From contig JADBKR010000008.1 of the NCBI GenBank assembly GCA_014896295.1, positions 124,001-188,000 on the forward strand: DNA of 64,000 bases, written 5' to 3'. The stretch comes from Limnochordaceae bacterium. Its GTDB lineage: Bacteria; Bacillota; Limnochordia; Limnochordales; Geochordaceae. A program made the translations under genes and the position numbers. Below, piece by piece: positions 44,156-51,638 of the stretch; position 1 is the first letter of the stretch; each line of letters opens with the position of its first letter. A model generated the notes under the pieces. The model was given only the letters and a program-made list of their open reading frames with translations. It searched no databases and had not been told where the DNA came from.

Positions 44156-45025
44156 GTGCGGCGGGGCGGAGCCTGGGCCTGGGGGTTCGTAGCGCCCGCG
44201 CTCTTGCTCATCGGCTTCTATCTCGCCTACCCCACGGTCCAGACCATCTACCTGAGCTTCATGGACCGCCGCTCGGAGCACTTCGTGGGCCTGTCCAACT
44301 ACGTGCGGCTGTTCACGTCGAGCGCGATGCTCACCGCCTTTCGTAACAACCTCTTGTGGCTGGTGGTCTTCACGGCCGGCACGGTGGGCCTGGGTCTGCT
44401 CATGGCGGTGCTGACGGATCGGGTGCGCTACGAGGCGGCGGCCAAGGCGCTCATCTTCCTGCCGATGGCCATCTCCTTCGTGGGCGCCGGCGTGATCTGG
44501 AAGTTCATGTACGCCTACCAGCCGCCGGGGGTACCCCAGATCGGCCTCGCCAACCAGGTCATGGTGATGTTGGGGCAACAGCCCAGGGGCTGGCTCGTCG
44601 AGCGGCCCTGGGTCAACAACCTGGCTCTGATTGCGGTCGGGGTCTGGATCTGGACCGGGTTTGCCATGGTGGTGCTGTCGGCCGCCTACAAAGCCATCCC
44701 CAAGGAGCTCCTCGAGGCGGCCCGGGTGGACGGCGCCACCGAGTGGCAGGTCTTCTGGCGCATCAGCCTTCCCGTCATCCAGTCCACGGTGGCGGTCGTG
44801 GCGACGACCATGATCATCAACGTCCTCAAGGTCTTCGACATCGTGTACGTCATGACCAACGGCAACTTCGGCACCGAAGTGATGGCCAACCGGATGTACA
44901 AGGAGATGTTCGAGTACCAGGACTTCGGGCGGGCCAGCGCCATCGCGGTCATCCTCTTCCTGGCCATCGTGCCGATCATGCTGGCCAACATCCGGCGCTT
45001 CCGGCGACAGGAGGCGACGCGATGA
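44156..45025 (+). CDS. Carbohydrate ABC transporter permease (MalF/UgpA type)
   Basis: 289 residues, about six helices, with the EAA coupling motif EAARVDGATEWQVFWRISLP in the loop that meets the ATPase. GTG start at 44156 behind GGAGTGAGG. The last four bases overlap the next permease gene (ATGA). A 122-nt GC-rich gap separates it from the binding-protein gene. Confidence 0.93.
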   Translation: MRRGGAWAWGFVAPALLLIGFYLAYPTVQTIYLSFMDRRSEHFVGLSNYVRLFTSSAMLTAFRNNLLWLVVFTAGTVGLGLLMAVLTDRVRYEAAAKALIFLPMAISFVGAGVIWKFMYAYQPPGVPQIGLANQVMVMLGQQPRGWLVERPWVNNLALIAVGVWIWTGFAMVVLSAAYKAIPKELLEAARVDGATEWQVFWRISLPVIQSTVAVVATTMIINVLKVFDIVYVMTNGNFGTEVMANRMYKEMFEYQDFGRASAIAVILFLAIVPIMLANIRRFRRQEATR

Positions 45026-45957
45026 GGAGCGCACCGCACGATCTTCCGGTGGCGGCGACGACGAGGCCTGCCGCTCGGCGTCGGGCTGCCACGGCGGCGC
45101 CGGCGGGCGCGGGAGAGTGGACCTCTCAGGCGCTCGTGCACCTGGTCGTGGTGCTGATGGCGCTGGCGTGGGTACTGCCCACGTTGGGGCTGTTGGTGAG
45201 TTCGCTGCGACCGGCTCCCGACGTGGCCCGCACGGGATGGTGGACCGTCTTCGCCAACCCGTTCGACCTCACGCGCTGGACGCTCGCCAACTACCGGCAC
45301 GTGCTGGGGCAGCAGGGGCTGGCGCAGGCGTTCCTCAACAGCTTCATCATCACGGTGCCGGCGACGGTGCTGCCCATCCTGGTGGCGTCGTTCGCGGCGT
45401 TCGCCTTCGCGTGGCTCGACTTCCCCGGGCGCTCGTGGCTCTTCCTGGTGGTCGTGGGGTTCCTCGTCGTGCCCCTGCAGATGACCTTCGTGCCGATCCT
45501 GAGGATCTACAGCGAGACCGGGCTCACCGGCACGTTCGTGGGGATATGGCTGGCGCACACGGGCTACGGGCTGCCCTTCGCCGTTTACCTGATGCGCAAC
45601 TTCTTCGGCTCGCTGCCGGGGGAGCTCTTCGAGTCGGCGTACATCGACGGGGCGTCTCCGCTGTCGGCGTTCTTCCGGCTGGCACTGCCGATGTCGACCC
45701 CGGCTCTGGCGTCGCTGGCGATCTTCCAATTTCTGTGGGTGTGGAACGACCTGCTGGTCGCCCTCATCTACCTGGGCGGCGGCGCCCGGACCGGCCCGTT
45801 GACCCTGAAGCTGTCGAGCCTGGTCGGCAGCTACGGGCAGGAGTGGCACGTGCTGACGGCGGCGGCCTTCATCTCCATGCTGATCCCGGTCGCCCTCTTC
45901 TTCGCGCTCCAGCGCTACTTCGTCCGGGGCATCCTGGCCGGCGCGGTCAAGGGCTGA
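45022..45957 (+). CDS. Carbohydrate ABC transporter permease (MalG/UgpE type)
   Basis: 311 residues with an Ala/Arg-rich 30-residue N-terminal extension, six helices, and the EAA-type loop ESAYIDGASPLSAFFRLALPMSTP. It ends GILAGAVKG, the usual C-terminus of MalG-type permeases. Overlaps its partner permease at the start and the convergent meaB gene by 11 nt at the end. Confidence 0.94.
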   Translation: MRSAPHDLPVAATTRPAARRRAATAAPAGAGEWTSQALVHLVVVLMALAWVLPTLGLLVSSLRPAPDVARTGWWTVFANPFDLTRWTLANYRHVLGQQGLAQAFLNSFIITVPATVLPILVASFAAFAFAWLDFPGRSWLFLVVVGFLVVPLQMTFVPILRIYSETGLTGTFVGIWLAHTGYGLPFAVYLMRNFFGSLPGELFESAYIDGASPLSAFFRLALPMSTPALASLAIFQFLWVWNDLLVALIYLGGGARTGPLTLKLSSLVGSYGQEWHVLTAAAFISMLIPVALFFALQRYFVRGILAGAVKG

Positions 45958-46990
45958 GATCCTGCCCGGAGAGGGCCTGGCGCAGGAGGAGGCCGGCGGC
46001 GTCCCGGGCCGACAGCTCGCCGTCTGCCAGGCGCCGGGCCAGCTCGGCCCAAAGCCCGCGCTGCCGGGCCGGCGCCACCACGTGGCGCTCCACCTCCGCT
46101 GCGAGGGCCGCCCGGAGCTCCCATTCGGCCCGGAGGCGGCGTCGCTCCTGGGCGGAGGGGGCCGACTCCAGATAGCGCCGGTGCGACTCCAGCGCTTCGA
46201 CGAGCTGGCCCAGCCCCTCCCGGCGGGTCGAGGAGACCAGCACCACGGGAATCTGCCAGGCGCCCGTATCGGGGGGCGAGAGGTGGAGGATCCCCGCGAT
46301 GGCCCGGTAGGCCTCGTGAGCGCCCGGGAGATCGGCCTTGTTGACCACCATCACGTCGCCGATCTCGACGATGCCGGCCTTGAGCGCCTGCACCTCGTCG
46401 CCGGAGCTCGGGTTGAAGACCAGCACGACCGTGTGGGCCACGCCCAGCACGCCGACGTCGTTTTGGCCGGCGCCGACGGTTTCGACCAGGACGACGTCCA
46501 TGCCGGCCGTGTCGAGCACCCGCACCATCGCGAAGACCGAGAGTGCGAGGCCCCCCTGCTGCCCGCGGCTGGCCACGCTGCGCATGAAGATCCCCGGATC
46601 GTCCACCGGCAGGCTCATTCGCAGCCGGTCGCCCAACACCGCTCCACCGGTGAAAGGGCTCGTGGGGTCCACCGCGAGAATGCCCACCTTGCGGCCGCGC
46701 CGGCGAAGCTCCAGGGCGAGCTGGCCGATGAGGGTGCTCTTGCCAGCGCCGGGGCTGCCCGTGACGCCCACCACGTGAGCGCGCACGACCCCGGTCAACA
46801 GAGGGGCGAGTTCGTCGGAGACGCGAGCTGCTTCCCGGCTCGTGCCGGCGACCCCGTCGTGCAGGCTCGCCTCGGCCAGGCTGAGCGCCCTGGCGAGCGC
46901 CCCCCGGTCTCCTGCCCGCACCCGATCGGCCAGCGACACCGTCCGGGCGGCGGCGTCACGTGGTTCACGCAAGCCGGAGTGCTGCTGCAC
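45947..46990 (-). CDS. meaB: Methylmalonyl-CoA mutase-associated GTPase MeaB
   Basis: A 347-residue G3E-type GTPase that guards and reloads the B12 cofactor of acyl-CoA mutases. Walker A GSPGAGKST is at residues 78-86, LAVDPTSPFTGGAVLGDRLRM follows, then VETVGAGQNDVGV and the base-recognition motif NKAD. It lies downstream of biotin carboxylase and carrier genes on the same strand, suggesting a propionyl-CoA to succinyl-CoA route. The mutase and the carboxyltransferase are not in this window. Confidence 0.93.
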   Translation of the reverse strand: MQQHSGLREPRDAAARTVSLADRVRAGDRGALARALSLAEASLHDGVAGTSREAARVSDELAPLLTGVVRAHVVGVTGSPGAGKSTLIGQLALELRRRGRKVGILAVDPTSPFTGGAVLGDRLRMSLPVDDPGIFMRSVASRGQQGGLALSVFAMVRVLDTAGMDVVLVETVGAGQNDVGVLGVAHTVVLVFNPSSGDEVQALKAGIVEIGDVMVVNKADLPGAHEAYRAIAGILHLSPPDTGAWQIPVVLVSSTRREGLGQLVEALESHRRYLESAPSAQERRRLRAEWELRAALAAEVERHVVAPARQRGLWAELARRLADGELSARDAAGLLLRQALSGQDLSP

Positions 46991-47060
46991 GGCTGGACGC
47001 CTCCCAACGGCGAAGCGACTTCACGATGGGGGGTGCAGGGCGCATCGCGCCTGCGTCACC

Positions 47061-47594
47061 TCAAGACGCTCCGGCCGGCGCCCGCAGCGCCACCAGGCTC
47101 TCCCCCGTGTTGACCGTCTGCCCCACGCGGACGGCGACGTGGCTCACCACGCCGGCTTCCGGGCTTCTCACCTCGTTTTCGAGGTTCATCGCCGACAGCA
47201 CCAGCAGGAGATCCCCCTTCCCCACGGCCTGGCCGGGAGTAACGGCGACCGACAGCACCAGGCCGGGCATCGGGGCTTTCACCACGCGGGCTCCCGCCGA
47301 GGTGCCGGCCGGCGCCGCCGGGCGCGACCCGGCGGAAAGAAGGGGCGGCCGGGCCACGCCGGCCTCCGCCGGGTGGGGCCGGGGCCGGGCCGGCGTGGAT
47401 CCCGGCAGGGCACCACCCTCGTACCCCACCCGGGTGGCCGCTCCGTCGACCTGCCCGGGTACCGGATCCACGAGCTCCTCTACCTCGACGATGTACGGCA
47501 CTCCGTCCACGTGCACCCGGAAGCGCCGGCGTGACCCATGCCCTGCGCCGGCCGTCCCCCCGTCTTCCCCGTAGAGCGCCGGGCTCCACGTCAC
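47061..47594 (-). CDS. Biotin carboxyl carrier-like protein with Asn at the biotinylation site
   Basis: 177 residues from the GTG at 47594, behind GGGGAGG. It has an N-terminal VHVDGVPYIVEVEE strand region, a Pro/Ala/Gly linker and a C-terminal biotinyl-domain fold: VVKAPMPGLVLSVAVTPGQAVGKGDLLLVLSAMN, LENEV, and GVVSHVAVRVGQTVNTGESL. The acceptor motif that should read (E)AMKMEN here reads SAMNLEN: residue 137 is Asn (codon AAC at 47186-47184). Biotin cannot be attached there. A one-base error (AAC for AAG/AAA) or a genuinely inactive carrier are both possible. It sits between biotin carboxylase and meaB. Confidence 0.75.
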   Translation of the reverse strand: MTWSPALYGEDGGTAGAGHGSRRRFRVHVDGVPYIVEVEELVDPVPGQVDGAATRVGYEGGALPGSTPARPRPHPAEAGVARPPLLSAGSRPAAPAGTSAGARVVKAPMPGLVLSVAVTPGQAVGKGDLLLVLSAMNLENEVRSPEAGVVSHVAVRVGQTVNTGESLVALRAPAGAS

Positions 47595-47652
47595 GGGTCT
47601 ACGCCTCCCCTCTCGCGGCCCCAGAGGGATCCCCGGGCGACCCGCCGGCGTT

Positions 47653-49289
47653 TCACCGGGCCCGGTGCGCCGGCCCGTGGGCTCCCCCACCTTCCGGGTC
47701 GGGGTAAATGGCCCGGATCCTCCACCGCCGGCGGCTCCCCGCGTCGCGGTCATGCCGCGCCGCTCCGGCCCTGGCCCGCGGGCCGTCCAGGTAGGCCTGG
47801 AGCGCCGCTGCCGCCGCGGCAGCCGCTTCGGGGGAAACGCCCTCCCTGCGCGCTCCCGGGGCGAGCTCGACCCGCGCTGCGGCAGCCCCCTCCCCGTTTC
47901 TCCCCGGGGCTGCCGCCCCCGGCCCCGGGCCATCGGGGGGTAGCTGGTCGGGGGTGAAGTGCTGCTCCACGAACCGGGTGGTCACTTCCCCGTCGCGAAA
48001 CTCGCGGCGCCCTACCAGCCACCGGTGGAAAGGCAGCGTCGTCCGCACCCCGTCGATCGCGAACTCCTCGAGCGCCCGGCGCGCCCTCGCCAGCGCCTCG
48101 CGCCGGGACGGTGCCCATACGACGAGCTTGGCGACCAGCGAGTCGTAGAACGGGGGGATGACCCACCCGGGGAACGCGGCCGAATCGACCCGCACGCCGG
48201 GCCCTCCGGGCGGCAGGTAAGCCTCGATGGCCCCCGGATTGGGCAGGAAGCCCCGGCGAGGGTCTTCGGCGTTGATGCGAAACTCGATGGCGTGGCCCCG
48301 CAGCACCACGTCCTCCTGCCCGAGGGGCACCGGCTGCCCGGCCGCGAGCGCCATCTGGAGCTGCACGAGGTCGGTCCCCGTCACGAGCTCCGTCACCGGG
48401 TGCTCGACCTGAATGCGGGCGTTGACCTCGATGAAGTAGAAGCGCCGCTCTTCGTCCACCAGGAACTCGGCCGTCCCGACCCCCACGTAGCCCGCCGACG
48501 CGGCGAGCCGCACCGCCGCCTCTCCCATGCGCCGCCGCAGCGTATCGTCCAGCACCGGGGACGGCGCTTCTTCTGCGAGCTTCTGGTGGCGCCGCTGGAT
48601 GGAGCAGTCCCGCTCCCCGAAGTAGACGCCCTTGCCGTACCGGTCGACGGCAAACTGGATCTCGACGTGGCGCACCCGCTCCAGCCACTTCTCCAGATAG
48701 AGGGAGCCGTCGCCGAACGCCTTCGCCGCCTCGGAGGAGGCCCGCTCCCACGCGCTCTCCAGCGACTCCGGCCCGTCCACGCGGCGCATGCCGCGCCGTC
48801 CCCGCCCGCCACCGCCTTCAGCAGCACCGGATAACCCAGGCGCTGCGCCTCCTGGCGGGCCTCCTCGACGCCGGACAGGGCGCCGGCGCTGCCGGGGATG
48901 GTCGGGATGCCGAGCCGCTCCGCCTCCCGGCGAGCGGCGTCCTTGTTGCCGAAGTGCGCCAGCACCTCTTCCGGCGGCCCGATGAAGGTCAGCCCCGCCT
49001 CCCGGCAGAGGCGGGCCAGCACCGGGTTTTCGGACAGGAAGCCGTAACCGGGGTGTACGGCGTCGGCCCCTGCCGAGCGGGCCGCCTCCACCACCGCCCG
49101 GGCATCCAGGTAGACCAGCGGGTCGTCCCGGACCACCACGCCATCCGCCAACCGTGCCGGGAGGCTCTCCCGATCGGGGCCGGATGCCAGCAGCACGGCC
49201 GGGATGCCGAGCTCCCGCAATGCGCGGATGACCCGCAGGGCGATCTCGCCCCGGTTGGCCACCAGCACGCTCGAGAAGATGGGGCCCAC
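47653..49289 (-). CDS. Biotin carboxylase subunit of an acyl-CoA carboxylase, apparent frameshift
   Basis: ATP-grasp biotin carboxylase. The GTG at 49289 starts SVLVANRGEIALRVIRAL and the frame runs through VHPGYGFLSENP to LLKAVAGG. There it breaks; the remainder (GMRRVDGPESL, HVEIQFAVDRYGKGVYFGERDCSIQRRHQK, EFLVDEERRFYFIEVNARIQVEHPVTE) is in a second frame. One extra G in the run opposite CCCC at 48800-48803 restores the glycine loop AGGGRRGMR. Corrected length is about 545 residues, longer than the usual 450-510 because of a low-complexity C-terminal tail. Followed by the carrier protein and meaB. Confidence 0.85.
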
Positions 49290-49363
49290 CGCTCTTCACC
49301 TGCCTGCCTTCCGAGCGCCCGCCCTCGCAGGGGTCTCTCGAGGGTCGATCCCGTCGTCGAGCC

Positions 49364-49389
49364 GTCAACCAAACGGCCGGTTGGTCGAC
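49364..49389 (-). promoter_or_regulatory. TetR-like operator upstream of the acyl-CoA carboxylase genes
   Basis: GTC-A-ACCAA-A-CGGCCG-G-TTGGT-C-GAC, a 26-bp palindrome with only two mismatched pairs. The ACCAA...TTGGT arms around a CG-rich centre resemble operators of TetR-type regulators that often control acyl-CoA genes. No TetR gene is in the window, so the regulator is inferred. Confidence 0.45.
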
Positions 49390-49667: not shown

Positions 49668-49710
49668 TCCTAGGGTAGAGTTCCCAGGCGAGAGGTGAGG
49701 GGTGGATGCT

Positions 49711-50115
49711 ATGCCGGAGCAGCAGGTACCCAAACTCTCCATCGTGCTCATGTCACCCCAGCTGAGCAAGCTGCACGCGGCGGCCATCATGGCATCGACG
49801 GCCGCGGCGGCAGGCATGAGGGTGCAGGTCTTCGCCACCATGGATGCCCTCGGGCAGTTTCGCAAGGAGGTCGTCGAGCGGCGCGCTTTCGTCCTGGACG
49901 AGGTGGGCCGCGAACTGGTCGCAAAAGGCGTGCCCCTTTTCTACGACTTGCTCGCGCAGGGCAAGGAAGTCGGCGATCTGCACGTCTTCGGGTGCGCGAT
50001 GGCGGCCGACCTCATGGGCTGGCGCCAGGCCGACTTCATCGACCTGGTGGAGGACGTCATCGGAGTGACCGCATTCTTTGGCAAGTCCGAAGGCGCCCAG
50101 ATCCTGACCATCTGA
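49711..50115 (+). CDS. DsrE/DsrF-like sulfur relay protein
   Basis: A 134-residue DsrE-fold protein (DsrE2-like). SIVLMSPQLSKLHAAAIMASTAAAAGM forms the first helix-strand unit, and VFGCAMAADLMGW carries the conserved Cys expected to hold persulfide sulfur. I start at the ATG of 49711, 10 nt after AGGTGAGG; a GTG at 49702 is also in frame. First gene of the DsrE-TusA-flavoprotein-DUF1641 operon, so a role in moving sulfane sulfur to or from TusA is likely. Confidence 0.85.
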   Translation: MPEQQVPKLSIVLMSPQLSKLHAAAIMASTAAAAGMRVQVFATMDALGQFRKEVVERRAFVLDEVGRELVAKGVPLFYDLLAQGKEVGDLHVFGCAMAADLMGWRQADFIDLVEDVIGVTAFFGKSEGAQILTI

Positions 50116-50137
50116 GAGACAGGAGGAGGGGGCACCC

Positions 50138-50426
50138 ATGGCCGTCGAGCAGGGCAAACCCCAGGCTGCAGCTCGGCGGGACCAACCACGCCCAGCTGCG
50201 GCCCGACAAGGTCGTAGACGCGCGGGGCGCCTACTGCCCGGGCCCGCTCATGGAGCTCATCAAGGCCATCAAGGCGCAGCCGGTCGGCAGCGTCGTCGAA
50301 GTCTGGTCGAGCGACCAGGGTTCGAGCAAAGACATTCCCGAGTGGGTCAAGAAGGCGTCCCACGAACTGGTGTACGTCGTGGAGGAAAGCGGGTACTGGC
50401 GTATCGCCGTTCGCAAGGGACACTAG
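50138..50426 (+). CDS. tusA: TusA family sulfurtransferase, apparent frameshift
   Basis: A small sulfur carrier. The strong GGAGGAGG before the ATG at 50138 opens a frame MAVEQGKPQ that then loses homology, while the TusA sequence VVDARGAYCPGPLMELIKAIK to IAVRKGH is in the next frame with no start of its own. Removing one C from the CCCC at 50159-50162 gives MAVEQGKPRLQLGG joined to the TusA part, 95 residues in all. The active Cys is in CPGP; the C-terminal TusA/SirA fold is complete. It lies between DsrE and the flavoprotein. Confidence 0.82.
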
Positions 50427-50480
50427 GAGGTCCGGCCCGAGACGACGGCCCCCGGCGCGCCGGGGGCCGGTCGAAGGAGC

Positions 50481-51638
50481 GTGGTGAGGGTGTTTGGCCG
50501 CAAGCGAGTCGTGATCCTGGGAGGCGGGCCCGGCGGCACCATGGTCGCCAACCACCTAGCCCGGCGGTTCAACGGGTCGTTGACGGGCGACCGGGTGGAG
50601 ATCGTGCAGATCACCGCTTGCACCAAGCACACCTACCAGCCGGGCTTTCTGTTCGTGGCGCTCGGCGACGCGCCGCTCGAGCACTTCGAGCGGGACCAGG
50701 CCTCGCTGCTGTTGCCCGGCATCCGGCTGGTCGTCGACCCGGCAGAGTCCATCGACCCGCAGGCCGGGCACGTCATCACCGAGAGCGGCGCCGTCTACGC
50801 TTACGACTACCTGATCATCGCCACGGGGTCGTACCCCGATCCTTCCGCCGTCCCCGGCCTGGCCCAGGGGGCTTTTGGGTTTTACACCGCCGAGGATGCG
50901 GTGCGGCTGCGCGAGGCGCTCGGCCGGTTCGAGAAGGGCCGCATCGTGCTGACCGTGGACGTGCCCCACAAATGCCCGGTGGCGCCCCTCGAGATGGTCT
51001 TGAGCCTGGATGCCTACTTCCGCCGGATGGGGCGCCGGCACGACGTCGAGCTCGTCTACACCTACCCCATCAACCGGGTCCACTCCCTGCCGCAGGTGGC
51101 CGAGTGGGCCCAGGCGGAGTTCGAGCGGCGGGAGATCCGGTGGGAGACGTTCTTCAACGTGGATCGGGTCGATCCGGAGCAGCGGGTCGTTTACAGCGCC
51201 GAGGGCGGCGAGTACCCGTACGATCTGCTCATCTCGGTGCCGCCGCACCGGGGTGCCCCGGTGGTGGCCGCCTCGGGCCTCGGCGACGAGCAGGGCTTCG
51301 TCCCCACCGACCGCTACACGCTCCGGGGAGCGGGGCTGGAAAACGTGTACGTCGTGGGCGACGCCACCAACTTGCCGGTCAGCAAGGCCGGCTCGACCGC
51401 CCACTACGAGGCCGACATCGTGGCGGACAACGTCGCCGCCGCCATAACCGGCGAGCCGGCGCTGCGCCGGTATGACGGGAAGGTCTTCTGCTTCATCGAG
51501 GCGGGCGATGACCGCGGCACCTACATCGAGTTCAGCTACACCCGGCCGCCGAGGCCGGCGCCGGCATCGGTCATGTTGCACCAGTTCAAGATGGCCTACA
51601 ACGAGATGTACTGGCTTTCGGCCCGGGGCGTCTTGTAG
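50481..51638 (+). CDS. Sulfide:quinone oxidoreductase-like FAD flavoprotein
   Basis: 385 residues. It has an N-terminal FAD-binding VVILGGGPGGTMVA, a second dinucleotide fold with YLIIATGSYPDPSAVPG, and the late FAD motif VYVVGDATNLPVSKAG. Candidate redox cysteines are in TACTKHTYQPG, VPHKCPVAPLEM and VFCFIEAGDD, near the positions used by SQR enzymes. In this operon oxidation of sulfide to sulfane sulfur with electrons to quinone is the likely job, with TusA/DsrE taking the sulfur. AAGGAG precedes a run of GTG codons, so the exact start (50481, 50484 or 50490) is open. Confidence 0.83.
   Translation: MVRVFGRKRVVILGGGPGGTMVANHLARRFNGSLTGDRVEIVQITACTKHTYQPGFLFVALGDAPLEHFERDQASLLLPGIRLVVDPAESIDPQAGHVITESGAVYAYDYLIIATGSYPDPSAVPGLAQGAFGFYTAEDAVRLREALGRFEKGRIVLTVDVPHKCPVAPLEMVLSLDAYFRRMGRRHDVELVYTYPINRVHSLPQVAEWAQAEFERREIRWETFFNVDRVDPEQRVVYSAEGGEYPYDLLISVPPHRGAPVVAASGLGDEQGFVPTDRYTLRGAGLENVYVVGDATNLPVSKAGSTAHYEADIVADNVAAAITGEPALRRYDGKVFCFIEAGDDRGTYIEFSYTRPPRPAPASVMLHQFKMAYNEMYWLSARGVL

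Follow-up and report, generated by a model that had tools for sequence, protein, structure and literature searches.

What defines a biotin carrier is a single lysine, the residue to which biotin is attached. In the window, which is the whole 64,000-nucleotide stretch of Limnochordaceae DNA analysed here, the gene of one such carrier (carrier1) has an asparagine codon in this place; a biotin carboxylase gene (BC1) lies upstream of it, and the gene of MeaB, the methylmalonyl-CoA mutase-associated GTPase, lies downstream (Table 1). The question that this locus raises is whether the substitution is real and, if so, by which carrier the carboxylase works and why the altered protein is kept.

Table 1. 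Positions of the carrier1 gene, its parts and its neighbours in the window.
Feature	Position	Strand	Evidence
BC1, biotin carboxylase	47653-49289	minus	Pfam Biotin_carb_N, CPSase_L_D2 and Biotin_carb_C over two frames
carrier1, PCC/MmdC-type biotin carrier protein (178 aa)	47061-47597	minus	ORF; Biotin_lipoyl and NCBIfam MmdC profiles; 95% identical in G244
Biotinyl domain of carrier1 (residues 103-171)	47085-47291	minus	phmmer match to 2d5d
Codon AAC (Asn138) in place of the biotinyl lysine	47184-47186	minus	direct sequence; G244; 28 homologues
MeaB, methylmalonyl-CoA mutase-associated GTPase	45947-46990	minus	Pfam MeaB, 270.9 bits; TIGR00750, 286.4 bits (cut-off 240.75)

Asparagine at the biotin site

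The gene of carrier1 is part of a minus-strand open frame (47061-47933), and its start is likely the GTG at 47595-47597, as judged from the frame and from an upstream GGGAGG. Asn138 sits in LLLVLSAMNLENEVRSPEAG, and the sequence around this residue is LVLSAMNLENEV. The initial annotation had described a biotinyl domain in which SAMNLEN replaces AMKMEN, and both parts of this description hold: the AAC codon is read directly, and the C-terminal domain scores 56.9 bits against Pfam Biotin_lipoyl (PF00364, cut-off 22.1), which places it in the biotinyl fold family. Among the homologous domains of related genomes, all 28 whose alignment covers the site have Lys there. Both strains of the window's species lack this biotinyl lysine of the A/E-M-K-M/L motif, while the rest of the biotin-loop motif is intact (SAM-LENE). 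Another lysine as acceptor was looked for by eye, and none is found within the biotin loop. An AlphaFold model of the domain, built from its sequence without an alignment, has a pLDDT of 36.5 and supports no structural claim; an Rfam search of the whole window gave no matches.

The best PDB match of the domain is the gamma chain of methylmalonyl-CoA decarboxylase from P. horikoshii, and in its structure 2d5d a lysine is aligned by phmmer to Asn138. Carriers of this MmdC/GcdC type (2d5d/2ejf) are the best sequence match of carrier1 in both PDB and NCBIfam, and share with it a short N-terminal beta segment, an Ala/Pro/Gly linker and a C-terminal biotinyl domain. Carrier1 differs from them in having Asn for the biotinyl Lys and in its score against the NCBIfam MmdC equivalog NF047903, which at 89.3 bits is below the curated cut-off of 200.

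It had been advised that sequence error be excluded before anything else, and a second genome now allows this. G244 is a complete genome (3.31 Mb) of another strain of the same species, with 97.5% identity to the window and 215 differing sites over 9 kb. Since its codon at the Asn138 site is also AAC, the K-to-N substitution is real and fixed in two strains. The relationship between the two genomes would fit that between Carboxydochorda subterranea L945, whose genome is complete, and the MAG Bu05, which have been assigned to a single species (PMC11456536). The assembly that contains the window is indeed rich in indels, which would favour an error with a true codon of AAG or AAA: we counted 68 putative in-gene frame switches in the 418 kb sampled (about 0.19 per coding kilobase), those in accC and the methylmalonyl-CoA mutase gene included, and both BC1 and the mutase are frame-switched there and intact in G244. 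However, the surplus errors are indels rather than substitutions, and two independent assemblies would have to share the same wrong base. Such an error is ruled out for practical purposes, and we assign it only a minute probability. One-base indels relative to G244 are found at window positions 48794, 50170 and 44109, and the extra A at 50170 splits a TusA-like gene (about 50138-50426).

A strict DNA pattern for the asparagine form, A-M-N-x-E-N-[ED]-x-x-[AS]-P, gave one match over 84,980 species genomes, although the scan covers that motif rather than every lysine-less carrier and may have left out records of this or very near genomes. This match is not a biotinyl domain; it is an unrelated protein starting with MNIENELTSP that was hit by chance. 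With Lys in place of Asn, the pattern occurs in 126 of the 398 genomes of the phylum. To our knowledge, natural carriers without the biotin lysine are known mainly as the BADC proteins of plants. A search of the open literature turned up no description of a lysine-less carrier from bacteria; this carries little weight, since it leaves most subscription journals uncovered.

The operon and its missing carboxyltransferase

Carrier1 had been assigned to an operon with a biotin carboxylase and MeaB. The profiles bear out both neighbours; less regular are the carboxylase gene, which is split in the window, and the absence from the locus of a carboxyltransferase, which the relatives have. BC1 is matched at 48393-49289 plus 47653-49368, and the split is caused by one missing base at 48794, inside a motif that reads AVAGGGGRGMR in relatives. 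G244 has an extra G and a single open frame of 547 codons. A decaying operon, which the frameshift might suggest, is rejected because BC1 is intact in G244 and comparable frameshifts, such as those in accC and the mutase gene, occur across the sampled genome; the break is a property of the indel-rich assembly. Between the two strains, pN/pS is about 0.18 for BC1, which indicates that the gene is under purifying selection. Adjoining the operon on the plus strand (49702-51638), DsrE-like, TusA-like and sulfide:quinone-reductase-like genes stand in a row, as judged by eye from their translations.

Five genomes of the same order and another family (G003, G006, G009, G011 and G012, family f2) have the gene order mutase, carboxyltransferase (CT1), BC1, carrier with AMK[ML]EN, and MeaB; note that the G012 contig ends inside MeaB. 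By similarity and gene order, BC1, carrier1 and MeaB of the window are orthologous to their counterparts in these propionyl-CoA carboxylase operons. The locus here differs in having neither CT1 nor the mutase and in the missing lysine of its carrier. The mutase of the window's species is encoded elsewhere, outside the carrier1 operon, and CT1 is absent from both strains. The Asn change is seen in one lineage of two strains, so that its association with the loss of CT1 is a single event.

In the two genomes of a sister genus (G001 and G002), the mutase is present, MeaB is confirmed in G002, and BC1, CT1 and CT2 (the second carboxyltransferase, see below) are absent. No BC1-type carrier was found beside MeaB in these genomes, and the propionyl-CoA carboxylase branch appears to have been lost in this genus.

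A second carrier beside the remaining carboxyltransferase

The initial annotation had reasoned that, if the substitution is real, the carboxylase needs another carrier, and had proposed a search for it and for the carboxyltransferase. This search was run, and both were found about 64 kb from the carrier1 operon. The sole acyl-CoA carboxyltransferase of the window's species, CT2, is located at C8:234963 (C1:2597134 in G244), and shares 72% identity with its counterparts in G006 and G009 and 71% with that in G004; its pN/pS between the strains is 0.13. Its locus contains a 70-residue carrier with the intact motif ESMKMEIP, two enoyl-CoA hydratases, two acyl-CoA dehydrogenases and electron-transfer genes. 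This carrier consists of a single domain of about 70 residues whose best PDB match is 1z6h (E = 1.8e-15), which identifies it as the YngHB/BLAP type; we call it BLAP.

Apart from carrier1, the only biotin-type carriers in the genome are AccB (EAMKL) and BLAP (ESMKM), and both keep their lysines. Two matches to the ligase family PF03099 are also encoded, so that biotin use as such is intact. The BLAP (YngHB) of B. subtilis, the best match of the 70-residue carrier, is biotinylated in vitro by B. subtilis BirA (PMC4016012). The CT2 locus resembles the YngHB system of B. subtilis in its 70-residue ESMKMEIP carrier beside a carboxyltransferase, enoyl-CoA hydratases and acyl-CoA dehydrogenases. Unlike that system, it has no adjoining biotin carboxylase gene, so that BC1 (or AccC) would be needed. 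The species has no biotin carboxylases besides AccC and BC1, and none is encoded at the CT2 locus, which makes BC1 the obvious candidate for supplying BLAP and CT2.

The CT2 locus varies among the relatives. In G004 a biotin carboxylase adjoins BLAP, whereas in G006, G009 and G011, genomes that also contain the complete CT1/BC1/carrier1 operon, no biotin carboxylase accompanies CT2 and BLAP. In these three genomes, two carboxyltransferases may share one biotin carboxylase via two carriers.

Signs of selection on carrier1, and its possible role

Between the strains, the biotinyl domain of carrier1 has one change in 222 bases, compared with a neutral expectation of about 12.5. Given the mean synonymous divergence of 0.057, the single nonsynonymous change in its 74 codons compares with about 9 expected under neutrality (Poisson P = 0.001). 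Synonymous changes are also scarce (0 compared with 3.6 expected, P = 0.03), so that the low divergence may partly reflect chance or local history. In the 103 codons of the adjacent linker, 8 synonymous and 8 nonsynonymous changes separate the strains, and 6 differences are found in the 70 bases downstream of the domain. Because strain differences are dense on both flanks of the domain (at 47060 and below, and at 47325 and above), a long recombined tract is argued against. Over the longer term the domain is not accelerated: its distance to family f2, divided by the distance within f2, is 1.60, compared with 1.92 for BC1 and 2.12 for MeaB. The Asn change may postdate most of this divergence. 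The strain and long-term comparisons both point to a constrained protein, and neither proves function. Elsewhere in the window, an ABC sugar permease gene (45023-45955, plus strand) has 12 nonsynonymous and 2 synonymous strain differences (dN/dS about 2.4), several of which cluster near its 5' end; assembly errors and real change are both possible sources.

Biotin protein ligase does not accept the side chain of Asn as a substrate. In the BC1/BCCP system of Chloroflexus, which is comparable, mutating the lysine at this site abolishes biotinylation (PMC11077971). For these two reasons, carrier1 should be unmodified. The explanation towards which we lean, by a small degree, combines an exchange of partners with the retention of carrier1. 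In this view, carrier1 is the carrier subunit of an ancestral propionyl-CoA-type carboxylase and has lost its biotin attachment site, in a species from which the cognate carboxyltransferase CT1 has also been lost. BC1 would now carboxylate biotin on BLAP, and CT2 would hand the carboxyl group to an acyl-CoA. Carrier1, neither biotinylated nor carrying CO2, would be retained to bind BC1 as a partner without catalytic function, acting in assembly or regulation, like the BADC proteins of plants. The conservation of the biotinyl domain is what makes such retention probable. The scaffold role that had been offered as an alternative is likewise compatible with this conservation, both between strains and in the long term, which does not by itself establish the role. 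Besides the scarcity of synonymous changes and the single lineage, two further points count against this explanation. Systems of the B. subtilis YngH/YngHB/YngE type and of the G004 type appear to manage without a carrier1-type protein, and therefore no scaffold is needed in principle; moreover, AccC rather than BC1 could serve BLAP and CT2.

The main rival to the exchange of partners with a retained carrier is that carrier1 became useless when CT1 was lost, that its lysine drifted away, and that a functionless protein is now disappearing. The absence of CT1 from both strains agrees with this, as do the tolerance of the linker for strain changes and the sister genus, where BC1 and both carboxyltransferases are missing and no BC1-type carrier was found beside MeaB. 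Against a disappearing protein speak an open frame intact in both strains, a domain nearly unchanged between variable flanks and not accelerated in the long term, and a biotin loop that lacks nothing but its lysine; we consider it unlikely, while still giving it appreciable weight. Alternatively, carrier1 could act not in assembly but as a dominant-negative regulator, in competition with BLAP or AccB for the biotin carboxylase. The conserved domain surface and loop would suit a competitor, and plant BADC has likewise been proposed to be inhibitory (discussed in PMC11926652), but the co-orientation of carrier1 with BC1 better suits a constitutive partner than a switch, and this reading seems to us improbable.

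Returning to the retained, non-catalytic carrier, the closest parallel is plant BADC in heteromeric acetyl-CoA carboxylase, a carrier paralogue without the biotinylation motif that occurs beside an active biotinylated carrier, and for which roles as glue in assembly and as inhibitor have both been argued (PMC11926652). The window's species similarly encodes a lysine-less carrier-like protein together with the lysine-bearing BLAP and AccB. BADC, however, is a plant protein derived from AccB that lacks the whole AMKL motif, whereas carrier1 is bacterial, of the MmdC type, and changed by one substitution in an otherwise intact motif. We tentatively propose, as a possibility that we hold less firmly than the explanation above, that a single K-to-N change after the loss of CT1 turned carrier1 into a non-biotinylated structural or regulatory subunit that lets BC1 use an unrelated small carrier and carboxyltransferase, which would make it an independent bacterial parallel of BADC.

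Whether BADC acts as glue or as inhibitor is disputed. If the proposal is true, a bacterial case that arose from one substitution, in a lineage that can be cultured and whose subunits are simple and stand-alone, would offer a clean test of the effect of a biotin-less carrier on a carboxylase, and would document a biotin carboxylase that changed its carrier partner after the loss of its carboxyltransferase.
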